Positions 2,213-18,938 of a DNA stretch of 45,861 nucleotides are shown here, piece after piece. A program made the position numbers and the translations under genes. Below the pieces are notes generated by a model. It worked only from the letters and a program-made list of their open reading frames with translations. It made no database searches and was not told the DNA's origin. Every line of letters begins with the position of its first letter. The stretch's first letter is position 1. This DNA comes from Acidobacteriota bacterium (GTDB lineage: Bacteria > Acidobacteriota > Terriglobia > Terriglobales > Acidobacteriaceae): NCBI GenBank assembly GCA_021781495.1, contig JAJXWS010000019.1, positions 1 through 45,861 on the forward strand, read 5' to 3'.

Positions 2213-5164
2213 GTGAGCACTTTCTCAATTCTTTCCAATTTCTCTCCGCTGGAGCACGAGCGCTTTGCGGCGCATCGGGAGCTGGAGGCACGGCTGAAGG
2301 CGACGCTGCGGGGCGATGTGCTGTTTGATATGGGATCGCGCGCGCTGTATGCGGCGGACTCGTCGAACTACCGGCAGTTGCCGGTGGGCGTGGTGCTGCC
2401 GCGGGATGCGGCGGACGTGGAGGCGGCGCTGGAGGCCTGCCGGGCGACGGGAGCGGCGGTGCTGCCGCGCGGCGCGGGCACCAGCCTGGCGGGGCAGTGC
2501 ACGAATGTGGCGGTGGTGTTCGACTACTCGCGCTACATGAACCGGCTGGAGGGGATGGACGCGGCGGCGAAGCTGGCGCGGGTGGAGCCGGGGATTGTGC
2601 TGGACCGGCTGCGCGACGCGGCGGAGGTGCATCATCTTACGTACGCGCCGGACCCGGCGACGCACTCGCGCTGCACGCTGGGGGGCATGATCGGCAACAA
2701 CAGTTGCGGCGTGCACGGGCTGCTGGGCGGCAAGGTGGCGGACAACGTGGAGTCGCTGGAGATTGTGCTCTACGACGGCACGCGGATGACGGTGGGCCGG
2801 ACGAGCGAGGCGGAGCTGGACCGGCTGATTCGCGGAGGCGGACGCGTGGGGCAGATCTACGCGGGGCTGGCGCGGATTCGCGACCGTTATGCGGAGGCGG
2901 TGCGGCAGCGGTATCCGCGGATTCCGCGGCGGGTCTCCGGCTACAACCTGGATGAACTGCTGCCGGAGAACGGCTTCCACGTGGCGCGGGCGCTGGTGGG
3001 CAGCGAGGGCACGTGCGCGAACGTGGTGCGGGCCACGCTGAACCTGACGGCGAGCCCGCCGTTCCGGGTGCTGACGGTGCTGGGCTTTCCGGACGCGTTT
3101 CAGGCGGCGGATGCGGTTCCGCTGGCGCTGCGGCATGGACCGATCGGGCTGGAGGGGTTCGATTATCTGCTGGTGGAGTTTATGCGGCGCAAGGGGCTGG
3201 CGCTGAAAGACCTGGACGAGTTGCCGCCGGGCGTGGGCTTCCTGCTGGTGGAGATGGGCGCCTGGAGCGCGGAGGAGGCGCAGGCGAAGGCCGAGGAGGT
3301 GGCGCGCGCATCGCAGGGCTGGCCGATGCCGCCGGTGGCGCACATCTGCACGCCGGCGGAGGCGGCGAGCGTGTGGCACGTGCGGGAGTCCGCGCTGGGC
3401 GCGATGGTGTTTGTGCCGGGCGAGCCGGACCGCTGGGAGGGCTGGGAGGACGCGGCGGTTCCGCCGGAGAAGCTGGGCGTGTATCTGCGGCGGATTACGG
3501 CGCTGATGGCGGAGTACGGTTATCGCAGCCCGCTGTACGGGCACTATGGGCAGGGGTGCGTGCATACGCGCATCAACTTTGACTTCACCACAGAGCAGGG
3601 GCTGAAGAACTTTCACGAGTTTCTGGAGCGGGCGGCGGACGTGGTGCTGAGCGTGGGCGGCTCGCTGAGCGGTGAGCATGGCGACGGACAGGCGCGCGGG
3701 GCGCTGCTGCCGAAGATGTTCGGGCCGGAGCTGATGGAGGCCTTCCGGGAGTTCAAGGTGCTGTGGGACCCGGATAACCGGATGAATCCCGGCAAGCTGG
3801 TGGACGCGGTGCGGGTGTATGACCCGGTGGAGAATCTGCGGCACGGCGAGCCGGCCGCGGGGCAGGCGCACCGGGAGTTGGAGACGCACTTTGCGTTCGC
3901 CATCGATGGCGGGTCCATGGAGCGGGCGACGGAGCGGTGCGTGGGCGTGGGCGCATGCCGCAAGACGGTGGGCGGCGTGATGTGTCCGAGCTACCGGGCG
4001 ACGGGGCAGGAGCAGTACTCGACGCGCGGACGGGCGCGGCTGCTGTGGGAGATGCTGGCGGGGGCGCTGCGCGAGGAGGGCTTCCGAAGCGACGCGGTGC
4101 ACGAGGCGCTGGACCTGTGCCTGAGCTGCAAGGCGTGCAAGACGGAGTGTCCGGTGCAGGTGGACATGGCTGCGTACAAGGCGGAGTTTCTGGCGCAGCG
4201 CTACAAGGGGCGGGCGCATCCGCTGCAGCACTACATCTTTGGATTTGCGGACCGGCTGGCGCGGTGGGGATCGCTGGCTCCGGCGCTGACGAATGCGATG
4301 CTGACGGGGCCGGTGACGAGTCCGCTGATCAAGCACATTGCGGGCGTGGCGCAGGAGCGGCAGTTGCCGCGGCTGGCGGCGAAGCCGTGGCAGACGACGC
4401 GGACGGACGCGGGACAGGACGCGGGACAGGACGCGGCGCGTCCGCTGGTGGTGCTGTGGCCGGATACGTGGAACAACTACTACCATCCGCAGACGCTGGC
4501 GGCGGCCGAGAAGGTGCTGATGCATGCGGGCTTCCGCGTGCAGACGCCGAAGGGGCACATCTGCTGCGGGCGTCCGCTGTATGACTTTGGGCTGCTGGAG
4601 GCCGCGAAGAGCTACCTGGCGCGGGTGCTGGAGCGCGTGGGTCCGCAGATTGACGCGGGGCTGCCGTTCCTGTTTCTGGAACCGAGCTGCGCGAGCGTCT
4701 TCAAGGACGAGCTGCTGGAGCTGTTTCCGAACAACGAGCGGGCAAAGCGGCTGAGCGGGCAGGTGTGGCTGCTGGCGGACTGGCTGGAGGCAAAGGCGCC
4801 GGAGTTTGCTCCGCAGGGGCTGGAGGGCGCGCATATCCTGGTGCACGGGCATTGCCACCACAAGGCGGTGTTCGGCGGCCCGGCAAGCGAGATTGCCGTG
4901 CTGCAGCGGGCGGGTGCGCGGGTGGAGGCGATCCAGGCAGGCTGCTGCGGCATGGCGGGCCCGTTCGGGTTTGAGGCGGACAAGTTTGAGGTGTCAAAGA
5001 CGATTGCGCAGGATGGACTGCTGCCCGCGGTGGCGAAGGCGGGGCCGATGACGATTGTGCTGGCGGACGGCTTCAGCTGCCGCGAGCAGATCAGCCAGCT
5101 GGGACACAAAAAGGCGCTGCACTTTGCCGAGGTGCTGGCGCATAGCTGCGGTTGCGGCGGGTGA
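2213..5164 (+). CDS. FAD-linked oxidase fused to a Fe-S / CCG-domain oxidoreductase (D-2-hydroxyacid dehydrogenase type)
   Basis: A 983-residue fusion of the GlcD-like flavin dehydrogenase and the GlcF-like Fe-S subunit, as in YdiJ and respiratory D-lactate or D-2-hydroxyglutarate dehydrogenases. The order is: PCMH-type FAD-binding domain (about 45-270; PRGAGTSLAGQ and GGMIGNNSCG), FAD-oxidase C-terminal domain (about 270-525; SGEHGDGQ), a cysteine motif near 576 (CVGVGACRK...CPSY), a 4Fe-4S motif near 635 (CLSCKACKTECP), and two CCG domains near 781 (ICCGRPL) and 910 (GCCGMAGPFG). Substrate is inferred only to be a D-2-hydroxyacid. A 12-bp tandem repeat at about 4408-4438 encodes DAGQDAGQDA in a linker. 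The start is GTG, reaching the conserved N-terminus; no upstream alternative is better. Confidence 0.9.
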   Translation: MSTFSILSNFSPLEHERFAAHRELEARLKATLRGDVLFDMGSRALYAADSSNYRQLPVGVVLPRDAADVEAALEACRATGAAVLPRGAGTSLAGQCTNVAVVFDYSRYMNRLEGMDAAAKLARVEPGIVLDRLRDAAEVHHLTYAPDPATHSRCTLGGMIGNNSCGVHGLLGGKVADNVESLEIVLYDGTRMTVGRTSEAELDRLIRGGGRVGQIYAGLARIRDRYAEAVRQRYPRIPRRVSGYNLDELLPENGFHVARALVGSEGTCANVVRATLNLTASPPFRVLTVLGFPDAFQAADAVPLALRHGPIGLEGFDYLLVEFMRRKGLALKDLDELPPGVGFLLVEMGAWSAEEAQAKAEEVARASQGWPMPPVAHICTPAEAASVWHVRESALGAMVFVPGEPDRWEGWEDAAVPPEKLGVYLRRITALMAEYGYRSPLYGHYGQGCVHTRINFDFTTEQGLKNFHEFLERAADVVLSVGGSLSGEHGDGQARGALLPKMFGPELMEAFREFKVLWDPDNRMNPGKLVDAVRVYDPVENLRHGEPAAGQAHRELETHFAFAIDGGSMERATERCVGVGACRKTVGGVMCPSYRATGQEQYSTRGRARLLWEMLAGALREEGFRSDAVHEALDLCLSCKACKTECPVQVDMAAYKAEFLAQRYKGRAHPLQHYIFGFADRLARWGSLAPALTNAMLTGPVTSPLIKHIAGVAQERQLPRLAAKPWQTTRTDAGQDAGQDAARPLVVLWPDTWNNYYHPQTLAAAEKVLMHAGFRVQTPKGHICCGRPLYDFGLLEAAKSYLARVLERVGPQIDAGLPFLFLEPSCASVFKDELLELFPNNERAKRLSGQVWLLADWLEAKAPEFAPQGLEGAHILVHGHCHHKAVFGGPASEIAVLQRAGARVEAIQAGCCGMAGPFGFEADKFEVSKTIAQDGLLPAVAKAGPMTIVLADGFSCREQISQLGHKKALHFAEVLAHSCGCGG

Positions 5165-12747: not shown

Positions 12748-13866
12748 ATGGCGAACCCAATTGATTTTCGTCCCGTGATTCTTGCCGGCGGCAGCGGAAC
12801 CCGTTTCTGGCCGCGGTCGCGCCGCAAGCATGCCAAGCAGGTGCTGGCGCTGGATGGCGAGCGCTCAATGATTCAGCAGACGGTGGAGCGGCTGAAGGCG
12901 CTGGCCCCGGTGCAGAACACCTGGGTGATTACCAACGAACTGCTGGCCGGGGAGATCGGGGAACAGCTGGAGGGCGTTCCGCCGGCGCACATCATCCAGG
13001 AGCCGGTGGCGCGGAATACGGCGCCGGCGTGCGGGCTGGCGGCGTTTCTGATTGAGCGGGAGAACCCGGACGCGGTGCTGGGGGTGTTTCCGTCAGACCA
13101 CGTGATTGGCGACGAGCCGCGCTTTTTGAAGATGCTGGAGAAGGGCATCCGGCTGGCCGCGGCGGGCGAGAACATGGTGGTGCTGGGCATTGAGCCCACG
13201 CGCGCGGAGACGGGCTACGGCTACATTGAGACGGGCGACCTGACCAGCGACGACGAGGCGCTGCACGTGCGGCGCTTTACAGAGAAGCCGAACCAGAACC
13301 GCGCCGAGGAGTTTCTGGCGGCGGGGAACTACTACTGGAACTCGGGGATGTTCTTGTGGTCGGCGCGGACGCTGGCGAATGCGGTGCGCGAACACCTGCC
13401 GGAGACGGCTCCGCTGCTGGAGGCGATTGCGGCGGCGTTTGGCAAGCCGGAGTTTGACGAGGTGTTCCGGCAGCTGTATTCGAAGTGCGAGAACATCTCA
13501 GTGGACTATGCGGTGCTGGAGCCGCGGTCGGCGAAGGGCGAGCATCTTTCGCGGCTGTATTGCCTGCCGGCGGAGTTTGGGTGGAACGACCTGGGCTCGT
13601 GGGCGTCTCTGTATGAGTATCAGCTGGAGACGCGGCTGCACGGCGACGGCGACGGCAACGTGGCGGAGACGGACGGCCACATGGCAATCGAGGCCACGAA
13701 TAACTACGTCTACAGCCCCAGGAAATTTGTGGCGCTGGTGGGCGTGGAGAACCTGGTGATTGTGGATACCGACGATGCGCTGCTGATTGCGCACCGCGAC
13801 CACTCGCAGGACGTGGGCAAGATTGTGAAGGAGCTGGGGCTGAGCGGGCGCAGCGACCTGATTTGA
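12748..13866 (+). CDS. manC: Mannose-1-phosphate guanylyltransferase
   Basis: Makes GDP-mannose from mannose-1-phosphate and GTP. The 372-residue protein has the nucleotidyltransferase signature VILAGGSGTRFWPRSR (about 10-25) with the downstream K-Q motif (KHAKQVL). It also has FPSDHVI (metal-binding Asp), ETGYGYIETG, FTEKPNQ, and NYYWNSGMFLW, all diagnostic of the short single-domain ManC form without the phosphomannose isomerase half. ATG 12748 is preferred because AGGATGG lies at a good distance; ATG 12736 is a weaker in-frame alternative. It is followed 126 bp later by the phosphomannomutase gene, giving the two successive steps of GDP-mannose synthesis. Confidence 0.93.
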   Translation: MANPIDFRPVILAGGSGTRFWPRSRRKHAKQVLALDGERSMIQQTVERLKALAPVQNTWVITNELLAGEIGEQLEGVPPAHIIQEPVARNTAPACGLAAFLIERENPDAVLGVFPSDHVIGDEPRFLKMLEKGIRLAAAGENMVVLGIEPTRAETGYGYIETGDLTSDDEALHVRRFTEKPNQNRAEEFLAAGNYYWNSGMFLWSARTLANAVREHLPETAPLLEAIAAAFGKPEFDEVFRQLYSKCENISVDYAVLEPRSAKGEHLSRLYCLPAEFGWNDLGSWASLYEYQLETRLHGDGDGNVAETDGHMAIEATNNYVYSPRKFVALVGVENLVIVDTDDALLIAHRDHSQDVGKIVKELGLSGRSDLI

Positions 13867-18178: not shown

Positions 18179-18318
18179 CGGCCTTCCATGCATGGGCGCA
18201 AGATTTTTGACGGGATTGCACCATGCGTGGTGATATCCACAGATAAATCCGTTTTTTGCACTTGCTTCCACAGATTGAACAGGCGCAGAGTCTCTACCAG
18301 TTGGTGAGCCTTTAGGGA

Positions 18319-18901
18319 ATCGGAAACGATGTTTCCAGCCCGGCGGGAGATGTAAGCAACGAGGGAGATCGAAGCGTAGTCCCTTGGCCTTTGCGGAGAT
18401 GGAGCAAGAAGGGGAGAGATGGGAATCGGATGCGGCCCAGCCGCAGAAGAGGACCGGAAGGAACCGGAAGGCAAGATCGACGGCCAGCCGAGAGATGAGA
18501 TTTGAAGGAAGCCGAAGCGAGCACCCGACGCTGGGCCGGAAGATGCAGGATTCGAAGGACGCCGGAGACTGAGTGGACGGGCAACCGAAGACCCGGACAA
18601 AGGCGAAGATCGGAGATTCATCCACGGTCCTGACAGGGCGATGCAAAGTTCAGTGGACGGAGGTGCGGCACAACCGGCCTTTGCGGCAACGAAACGGAAG
18701 AAGGAAAGCGGAAGATCCGATGCGGCTGGGAAGCAGAGGAGAATCCGGTGGAATTCCGAAGAGACATTGACGGCCAGCCGGAAGAGCAGCACGGAAGAAG
18801 ATTGAAGATTCATCGTCAGGCACGACCGTAAGGCGTTGAACCCGACGAACTACGAGGACACCCGGAAAGCGCCAGGGACTGATTCAGGTCTCTGGCGTTT
18901 T
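18319..18901 (+). ncRNA. Candidate large non-coding RNA with a 290-nt internal duplication
   Basis: Bases 18179-18900 contain no believable gene. Two sets of blocks recur at one constant offset of 290: ATCGGA (18319/18609), GGCCTTTGCGG (18386/18676), GATGCGGC (18429/18719) and GACGGCCAGCCG (18479/18769). Sequence between the blocks has diverged strongly, as in structured RNA repeats. The plus strand is roughly 70% purine in the lines counted by eye. Local hairpins include GGAAAC / GTTTCC (18322-18336) and TGCGGC / GCCGCA (18431-18445). It ends in a strong intrinsic terminator at 18866-18901, with strand bias to the plus strand. The 5' end is uncertain; TTGACG at 18207-18212 is a possible -35. 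It does not match what I know of tmRNA, RNase P RNA or 6S RNA. Confidence 0.45.
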
Positions 18902-18904
18902 CGT
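18866..18904 (+). terminator. Intrinsic terminator at the end of the RNA candidate
   Basis: Stem of 14 pairs, AAAGCGCCAGGGAC (18866-18879) with GTCTCTGGCGTTTT (18888-18901), 8-nt loop, T-rich after it. Two pairs are G-U on the plus-strand RNA and would be A-C mismatches on the minus-strand RNA, so the structure favours plus-strand transcription. Confidence 0.75.
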
Positions 18905-18938
18905 TTGTGCGCGCGTTTGCGCGCCGCCACGCGCATGG

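Follow-up and report, generated by a model that had tools for sequence, protein, structure and literature searches.

We identified a candidate gene for a large structured RNA on the plus strand of a 45,861-nt stretch of acidobacterial DNA (the whole of which we call the window). Searches with blastn, a model of the 5' block (R1) and consensus folds placed the gene at 18298-18905, corresponding to an RNA of about 605 nt. We are confident that the locus represents a real, conserved RNA family, and we hold it as practically certain that the body of the RNA consists of a variable number of degenerate ~49-nt tandem modules. Taken as a whole, our sequence analyses give an even chance that this is an independently transcribed, trans-acting structured RNA gene that would found a new family in the Acidobacteriaceae and serve as a multivalent platform. 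The first-pass annotation had proposed a large plus-strand RNA that was structured, undescribed, ended by its own terminator and made of two related domains. The first part of this description stands, now joined by conservation and covariation among relatives. The two domains do not, because the 290-nt repeat on which they were based is instead the sixth multiple of the ~49-nt tandem module.

Boundaries, promoter region and distribution

Four exact blocks (6, 11, 8 and 12 nt) had been reported to recur at an offset of 290 nt, and we recovered them precisely as claimed. Counting exact runs of at least 6 nt on the plus strand of 18319-18904, we observed ATCGGA at 18319, GGCCTTTGCGG (11 nt) at 18386-18396 and 18676-18686, GATGCGGC (8 nt) at 18429-18436 and 18719-18726, and GACGGCCAGCCG (12 nt) at 18479-18490 and 18769-18780. 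Self-identity was 46% at lag 290, 30% at lag 289 and 28% at lag 291. The summed exact-run length at lag 290 was 37, a value reached in 0 of 200 dinucleotide shuffles at any lag from 20 to 400 (maximum 33, mean 15). The plus strand of this interval was also purine-rich (65%), in agreement with the earlier description.

The intrinsic terminator at the end of the RNA proved to be real (CGCCAGAGGC..GTCTCTGGCGTTTTC, 18865-18902, plus strand). Its stem, in which 18865-18880 pairs with 18887-18902, has 16 pairs with three G-U pairs, not the 14 pairs with two wobbles first reported. A simple consensus terminator scanner did not include it in its list. Across relatives the terminator was kept in sequence and not in form alone (CGCCAGAGGC-loop-GTCTCTGGCGTTTTC), and one pattern recognised it in 49 of 69 long elements. 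Its pairing was kept in 139 of 144 cells of an alignment of nine forms of the window's group (A4). Element bounds of 18319-18904 were too narrow; with the promoter region the element covers 18216-18905, and the RNA would start near 18298.

In alignments of relatives, a strongly conserved promoter region spanned 18216-18291 of the window, with the layout TGCACYA-N4-TRGTGAWATCCACAGA, about 10 variable bases, TTTTGCACTTGCWTYCACAGATTGAAC and then a -10-like YANNNT. On the plus strand of the window it comprises an upstream dyad, TGCACCA..TGGTG (18217-18232), and two conserved boxes, ATCCACAGA (18235-18243) and TTTGCACTTGCTTCCACAGATTGAA (18255-18279). The second box contains a -35-like TTGCTT (18262-18267), followed after an 18-nt spacer by the -10-like hexamer CAGAGT (18286-18291), read from the alignments. 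In naming these hexamers we assumed promoter consensus features. The dyad letters TGCAC and GTGA were invariant in all 25 aligned sequences, and its inner letters varied on both sides (CACTAG..TAGTG in L026, CACCGTG..ACGGTG in L017). Because TATCCACA resembles a DnaA box, we also considered a replication locus. The motif TTWTNCACA was absent from 6 to 8.5 kb around dnaA in four genomes, and the GC skew sampled in G002 was noisy.

Among viral contigs, the promoter pattern matched a single one (L264, IMG/VR, 12949-13006), which scored 45 bits against the 5'-block profile and carried a perfect dyad, TGCACCAAGCGTGGTGCA. There the promoter region stands before a different sequence and not the RNA. 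This promoter, and the regulator that reads it, may thus also control other genes. A looser pattern matched three more viral contigs (two of them identical) at 17-19 bits to the same profile with no module, and we took these as chance. A weaker promoter copy, ATCCACARA..GATTTTTGTATTTGCATT, was observed at L104 and L105 (G088:C716 near 4143-4199; G060:C1 near 3389636). Downstream of it lies an apparent small RNA of ~110 nt that has a terminator; in both genomes the tmRNA gene is roughly 1.2-1.4 kb away. We found no Rfam match for this small RNA.

Using 18179-18910 as a blastn query, we detected the element in 24 of 35 other genomes of the same genus and in 0 of 24 outside it. A comparison with relatives had been proposed as a check, and within the genus it showed the element to be conserved and covarying. 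G000 had one full-length place, and its 30 further matches were all at most 47 bp with E of 0.05 or worse. With R1, a sequence-only model built from 25 sequences, we obtained matches (E of 0.01 or lower) in 66 of 80 genomes of the genus, and in 35 of the 42 good ones. The count of 66 includes one genome whose sole match is a short form (G010) and some partial matches at contig edges (G067, G095). One match was found in 56 of the 66 genomes and two in 10; the second matches L103, L104 and L105 were weak and are not the RNA. The RNA is not required throughout the genus, since 7 of the 42 good genomes lacked an R1 match. Seven genomes without a match had no module or 5' block within 1.5 kb of their aminotransferase gene.

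We also searched wider, overlapping samples with stricter filters, under which weak matches were lost. R1 matched 11 of 299 class genomes, 15 of 250 family genomes (3 of 79 genera) and 6 of 396 phylum genomes (2 of 210 genera). Matches occurred in three other genera of the family, namely g22 (G175, G513), g19 (G330) and g30 (G478). One assembly from another family also matched (G243; 85% complete, 660 contigs) and may be contaminated. In named genomes the promoter pattern matched 24 stretches, counted on the promoter alone and not on the full RNA one by one. Every record was titled Acidobacteria or a lower acidobacterial taxon, including Terracidiphilus sp. and Occallatibacter savannae AB23. 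From inferred start to recognised terminator, long RNAs spanned 276 (L073) to 1154 nt (L060), with a median of about 800. One genome held two long-RNA copies in tandem with about 160 bp between them (L009 and L075; G034:C66 15017-16581), and two genomes each held two ~400-nt copies about 3.4 kb apart (L095 and L096; G014:C103, G097:C67).

The first-pass annotation had also suggested an Rfam search, and the element matched no family. Over the whole window, Rfam 15 returned four tRNAs, each outside the element. In the element region at E up to 10, the best score was 17.3 bits against a cut-off of 53.7, and Rfam returned nothing over the long forms in L032, L073, L074, L080 and L096. Neither Rfam 15 nor the titles and abstract openings of the open-access papers among the matches listed described such an element.

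The upstream neighbour in the window is a class I/II aminotransferase gene (PF00155; 16961-18178, plus strand). The RNA could thus be a cis-acting part of a neighbour, either the 3' UTR of the aminotransferase or the leader of a downstream gene. Eight elements, at seven loci, had the aminotransferase within 2.5 kb on their upstream side (76 elements, 67 of them with at least 1300 nt of upstream sequence covered), and in G008 it lay about 1.4 kb upstream. A position downstream of alaC, which had been put forward as the site to compare, is no general rule, as these are eight of 76 elements and the RNA occupies other sites in other genomes. In G002 and G060 more than 1 Mb (in coordinates) separates the aminotransferase from the RNA, in G009 the two are on different contigs, and elsewhere the flanking genes differed between genomes, which makes a cis role unlikely. 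The RNA moreover has its own promoter region and terminator, and we regard a cis-acting element as highly improbable. We rejected a phage or plasmid origin: a plasmid search gave no match to the RNA, and the sole match in a phage search, 31 bp long (E 5e-3), came from one phage represented by two records. The few flanking proteins examined with Pfam included no phage family.

Tandem modules and their predicted fold

Across 29 representative long forms, we observed 387 exact 6-mer repeats at lag 49, compared to 27.5 in shuffles (z 48), with further peaks at lags 98, 147, 195, 244 and 294. With a period of ~48.5 nt, the 290-nt lag of the window corresponds to six periods. The strongest lags in the window by itself were 289-291, 241-243, 96-98, 48, 171-172 and 191-193, among which 171-172 is not a multiple of the period. 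Tandem Repeats Finder reported periods of 49 and 148 in L032, and a repeat search of L025, L032 and L081 gave the same repeat steps.

With an iterated module profile we retained 326 modules, distributed over 60 of 69 elements; successive modules most often began 49 (120 times), 48 (63) or 50 nt (53) apart. The profile found at most 16 modules in one element; from length we estimated up to about 20. The window's copy is among the more diverged, with just 3 modules seen by the profile and just 4 GNRA hairpins of at least 3 pairs. The most conserved internal module of the window is GATTCATC-hairpin-GATGCAAAGTTC (18615-18651, plus strand), with the 12-nt core GAYGCAARGYTC. This core was present in 44 of 69 long elements, absent from 25, and found 0 times on the minus strand. 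Measured from the assumed RNA start, its distance was 156-164, 195-207, 246-252, 298-300 or 343-346 nt in 43 of the 44, with one outlier at 278 nt. These distances follow module steps, as expected if whole modules are gained or lost.

A hairpin of the form CGGg-GNRA-cCCG was prominent in 212 modules from 55 elements (second register), with G at 91% and the final A at 98% in the loop. Its inner pair was GC in 110 cases, CG in 42, UG in 31 and UA in 5 (n = 209), with GU at 32 and AC at 0. Counting 4-bp hairpins with a GNRA loop over 48 elements gave 349 for the plus strand and 3 for the minus strand, compared to 38.3 in shuffles. In a second hairpin the outer CAUC/GAUG pairs were mostly retained; its register is uncertain because the five inner pairs were poorly supported (GU 128, AC 116). 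These analyses show most of the recognisable modules as a predicted GNRA-loop hairpin plus CAUC/GAUG pairing around a less certain second hairpin.

Even module spacing and near-invariant GNRA loops would also suit a self-assembling RNA particle, in which GNRA hairpins dock into neighbouring helices and the array, or several copies of it, forms an RNA-only body. Such a particle would have a precedent in the RNA-only complexes described in PMC12286853. Module number, however, varies widely among relatives (long RNAs of 276 to 1154 nt), unlike a fixed stoichiometry, and there was no Rfam match to ROOL, GOLLD or OLE. We therefore consider a particle unlikely, though worth keeping in view.

Folded alone, the sequence was only slightly more stable than its shuffles, whether the plus (z -2.2) or the minus strand (z -2.3) was taken, so the lone sequence could not decide. 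Consensus folds were computed on A4 and on an alignment of 10 long forms of about 850-920 nt (A3). The A3 consensus reached -259 kcal/mol, whereas its reverse complement gave -176 and 20 column shuffles averaged -148 (sd 5.6); the corresponding values for A4 were -106, -71 and -48 (sd 4.3). We counted 224 pairs in A3, 37 of them changed on both sides, and 112 in A4, 24 of them changed on both sides, with GU versus AC at 286 versus 19 and 117 versus 25; these counts favour the fold because the folds were predicted on those very alignments, in which many sequences are close relatives.

Both folds contain a predicted 5'/3' helix that closes the RNA, with its 5' strand at 18303-18315 (plus strand) pairing with 18850-18862. 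Its sequence differed by group (GGUG/CACC in A4, UGAU/AUCA in A3), and it also pairs GUAG-like with CUAC-like bases. In A4, 87 of 90 cells were paired, with 0 pairs changed on both sides. The 5' block contains an inverted repeat visible in the sequence, GGAAAC/GTTTCC (18322-18336, plus strand), whose bases were paired with other partners in the A4 consensus fold.

In seven pairs of relatives, substitutions fell on all three codon positions (the most uneven counts being 15/27/24 and 21/15/24), and of the 25 indels, 24 had lengths not divisible by three. The lack of a codon pattern and the frame-breaking indels argue against a coding gene, which we rejected on either strand. Long open frames on the minus strand are probably due to low T content. 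Together, covariation, the excess of GU over AC and single-base indels support a predicted folded, non-coding plus-strand RNA.

The alternative offered earlier was a decayed tandem element next to a terminator; we considered it as a tandem DNA repeat or a mobile element that does not function as RNA. The tandem origin is indeed clear, and the context varies among genomes. The structure, however, is under selection: it is specific to the plus strand and covaries, and the promoter region and terminator are conserved at both edges. A mobile repeat also fits poorly with a single match in 56 of 66 matching genus genomes and one full-length place in G000. We consider decay without RNA function very unlikely.

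A short sister form and its link to tRNA

R1 also found four short elements (L080, L100, L101 and L102), about 200 nt long from block start to terminator. Their promoter core (TTTTTGCACTTGC..CACAG and variants) and their terminator resemble those of the long forms. Their minus strand scored 49-55 bits as tRNA (RF00005), and their reverse complement was 71-78% identical to tRNA-Arg(cct) of G000. ARAGORN called them Ser(gct), Thr(cgt), an unassigned ccga and Ala(cgc). The tRNA fold lies opposite to the strand with the promoter and terminator, and the anticodons disagree among members; we rejected a tRNA gene on these two grounds. No tRNA was found in the long forms scanned (L001, L009, L073, L074 and L096).

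A short-form model built from the four short elements (R2), for which only matches above 100 bits were counted as short forms, detected full-length short forms in 5 of 80 genus genomes. A diverged short form was found in another genus (G442, 58 bits), and intermediate matches were those of G009 (66 bits), G539 (59) and G442. At lower scores R2 matched every genome, the listed matches at about 30-45 bits. Since six R2 loci of about 30-45 bits or stronger each hold an ARAGORN tRNA, we read the lower matches as antisense strands of tRNAs. Four genomes carry both short and long forms (G017, G071, G072 and G096), the long form of G017 adjoining an assembly gap.

Models of the ends built from long forms only detected five of six short forms each, at 4.5 to 18.7 bits (5') and 10.6 to 15.1 bits (3'). 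With the 5' model, L080 scored weakly (4.5 bits) and L163 was not reported; with the 3' model, L102 was not reported. The best control scores (5' and 3') were 3.4 and 1.8 bits among 200 short-form shuffles, 2.1 and 5.3 among 200 tRNA shuffles, and 3.0 and 3.2 among 28 ordinary antisense tRNAs. Ordinary antisense tRNAs are thus near background, and the link to tRNA rests on the short forms. By direct reading, the long-form 3' ends GATCCATTGAGCTA (L014) and TATCCAATTGAACTGCGAG (L073) resemble the short-form TATCCAATTGAGCTACGGGG.

These data suggest that both ends of the long form are homologous to the short antisense-tRNA form, and an antisense-tRNA ancestry is likely. In the window, the putative homologous stretches on the plus strand are the 5' block (18298-18347), matching the 5' end of the short form, and the 3' block (18822-18862), matching its 3' end (antisense D arm and acceptor). 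The 3' block contains CTAC (18850-18853) and CACC (18859-18862). Because the long form would hardly have given rise to a complete tRNA-like fold, we infer that the long form grew from an ancestral short form.

If the ends retain their antisense character, the RNA could be a regulator that binds tRNAs through them. The identity of the short-form reverse complement to tRNA-Arg(cct) (71-78%) is consistent with this. Two short forms gave duplex energies of -100 and -97 kcal/mol with the tRNAs of G000, used in place of those of the short forms' own genomes, compared to -64 and -62 (sd 5.2) for shuffles. The long-form ends of the window, however, did no better than shuffles when paired with 28 tRNAs of its own genome (-45.2 versus -45.3, sd 3.7; -39.3 versus -37.5, sd 2.6), and the long-form ends pair with each other in the consensus folds. 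We rejected tRNA capture by the long form, which showed no excess complementarity over shuffles, and antisense regulation of tRNAs is improbable overall.

At five loci (L100, L101, L102, L080 and L147), ARAGORN placed a tRNA-Ser, tRNA-Thr, tRNA-Ala or unassigned tRNA opposite a promoter-like region and terminator; short-form loci may be mis-annotated as tRNA genes in public genomes. G009 also carries an orphan tRNA-like gene (L148 1514-1588, called Ser, cga), whose T-arm region GATGAAGGTCCGAGTCCTTCCGGGG is common to the short forms and which lacks the short-form promoter.

Proposed function and comparison with known systems

We propose that a short antisense-tRNA RNA gene was duplicated and that the middle of the RNA was then lengthened by repeated tandem duplication of a ~49-nt unit. 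Judging from its sequence, the locus would be transcribed as an independent unit. With its many similar hairpins, a single RNA would bind multiple molecules of one partner (probably an RNA-binding protein that is not CsrA), and a regulator acting at the conserved upstream boxes would adjust the dose of the RNA. Our most tentative step is to regard the RNA as a sponge or scaffold with many binding sites, a multivalent platform. A variable module number would fit a binding array better than a fixed particle. We judge the multivalent platform the most likely of the explanations, at somewhat less than an even chance, and the RNA-only particle the next, at a clearly lower probability. Similarly tentative is the broader suggestion of a new RNA class, which would have arisen from a transcribed tRNA reverse complement and grown by duplication of ~49-nt hairpin modules to about 1.15 kb, yielding tunable multivalent scaffolds under a dedicated regulatory promoter that is itself conserved.

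One specific form of protein capture would be a CsrA sponge like CsrB or RsmZ. The element is a purine-rich hairpin array, and GGA triplets were somewhat enriched (800 versus 712, sd 16). ANGGA, counted irrespective of loop placement, was not enriched (148 versus 183 in shuffles, sd 9.5), and none of the 36 genomes of the genus that we searched for CsrA (PF02599) gave a hit, whereas controls were positive. We rejected the sponge on the absence of CsrA from these 36 genomes and the lack of ANGGA enrichment, and find it barely conceivable. A ribosome (Shine-Dalgarno) decoy was also rejected, with GGAGG at 71 versus 82 and AGGAG at 39 versus 75 in shuffles.

This family may let one trace how a large non-coding RNA is born and grows, as the short form and long forms with varied modules exist in living relatives. 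Natural variation in module number allows a test of function against valency, and the extreme modularity makes the RNA a good experimental target.

Among RNAs described from Acidobacteria, Table 1 of PMC2864571 gives the motifs Acido-1 and Acido-Lenti-1 with Rfam accessions. Both motifs of that table are in Rfam, whereas the element matches no Rfam family. The likeness to tRNA (RF00005) is limited to the minus strand of the short form, with the promoter-like region and terminator on the other strand.

The families ROOL, GOLLD and OLE, all included in Rfam, are large structured bacterial RNAs, like the element. ROOL and GOLLD often lie near tRNA islands, and GOLLD linkers sometimes hold tRNAs, according to PMC12286853. 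The element differs from all three families in its tandem modules, in being antisense and not sense to tRNA, and in having no Rfam match.

CsrB/CsrC and RsmX/Y/Z act in trans as CsrA-sequestering hairpin arrays with variable unit numbers. Compared to these RNAs, the element is longer, has regular 49-nt modules, shows no enrichment of ANGGA and belongs to a genus without CsrA in the genomes searched. It resembles them as a predicted hairpin array that may capture protein multivalently.
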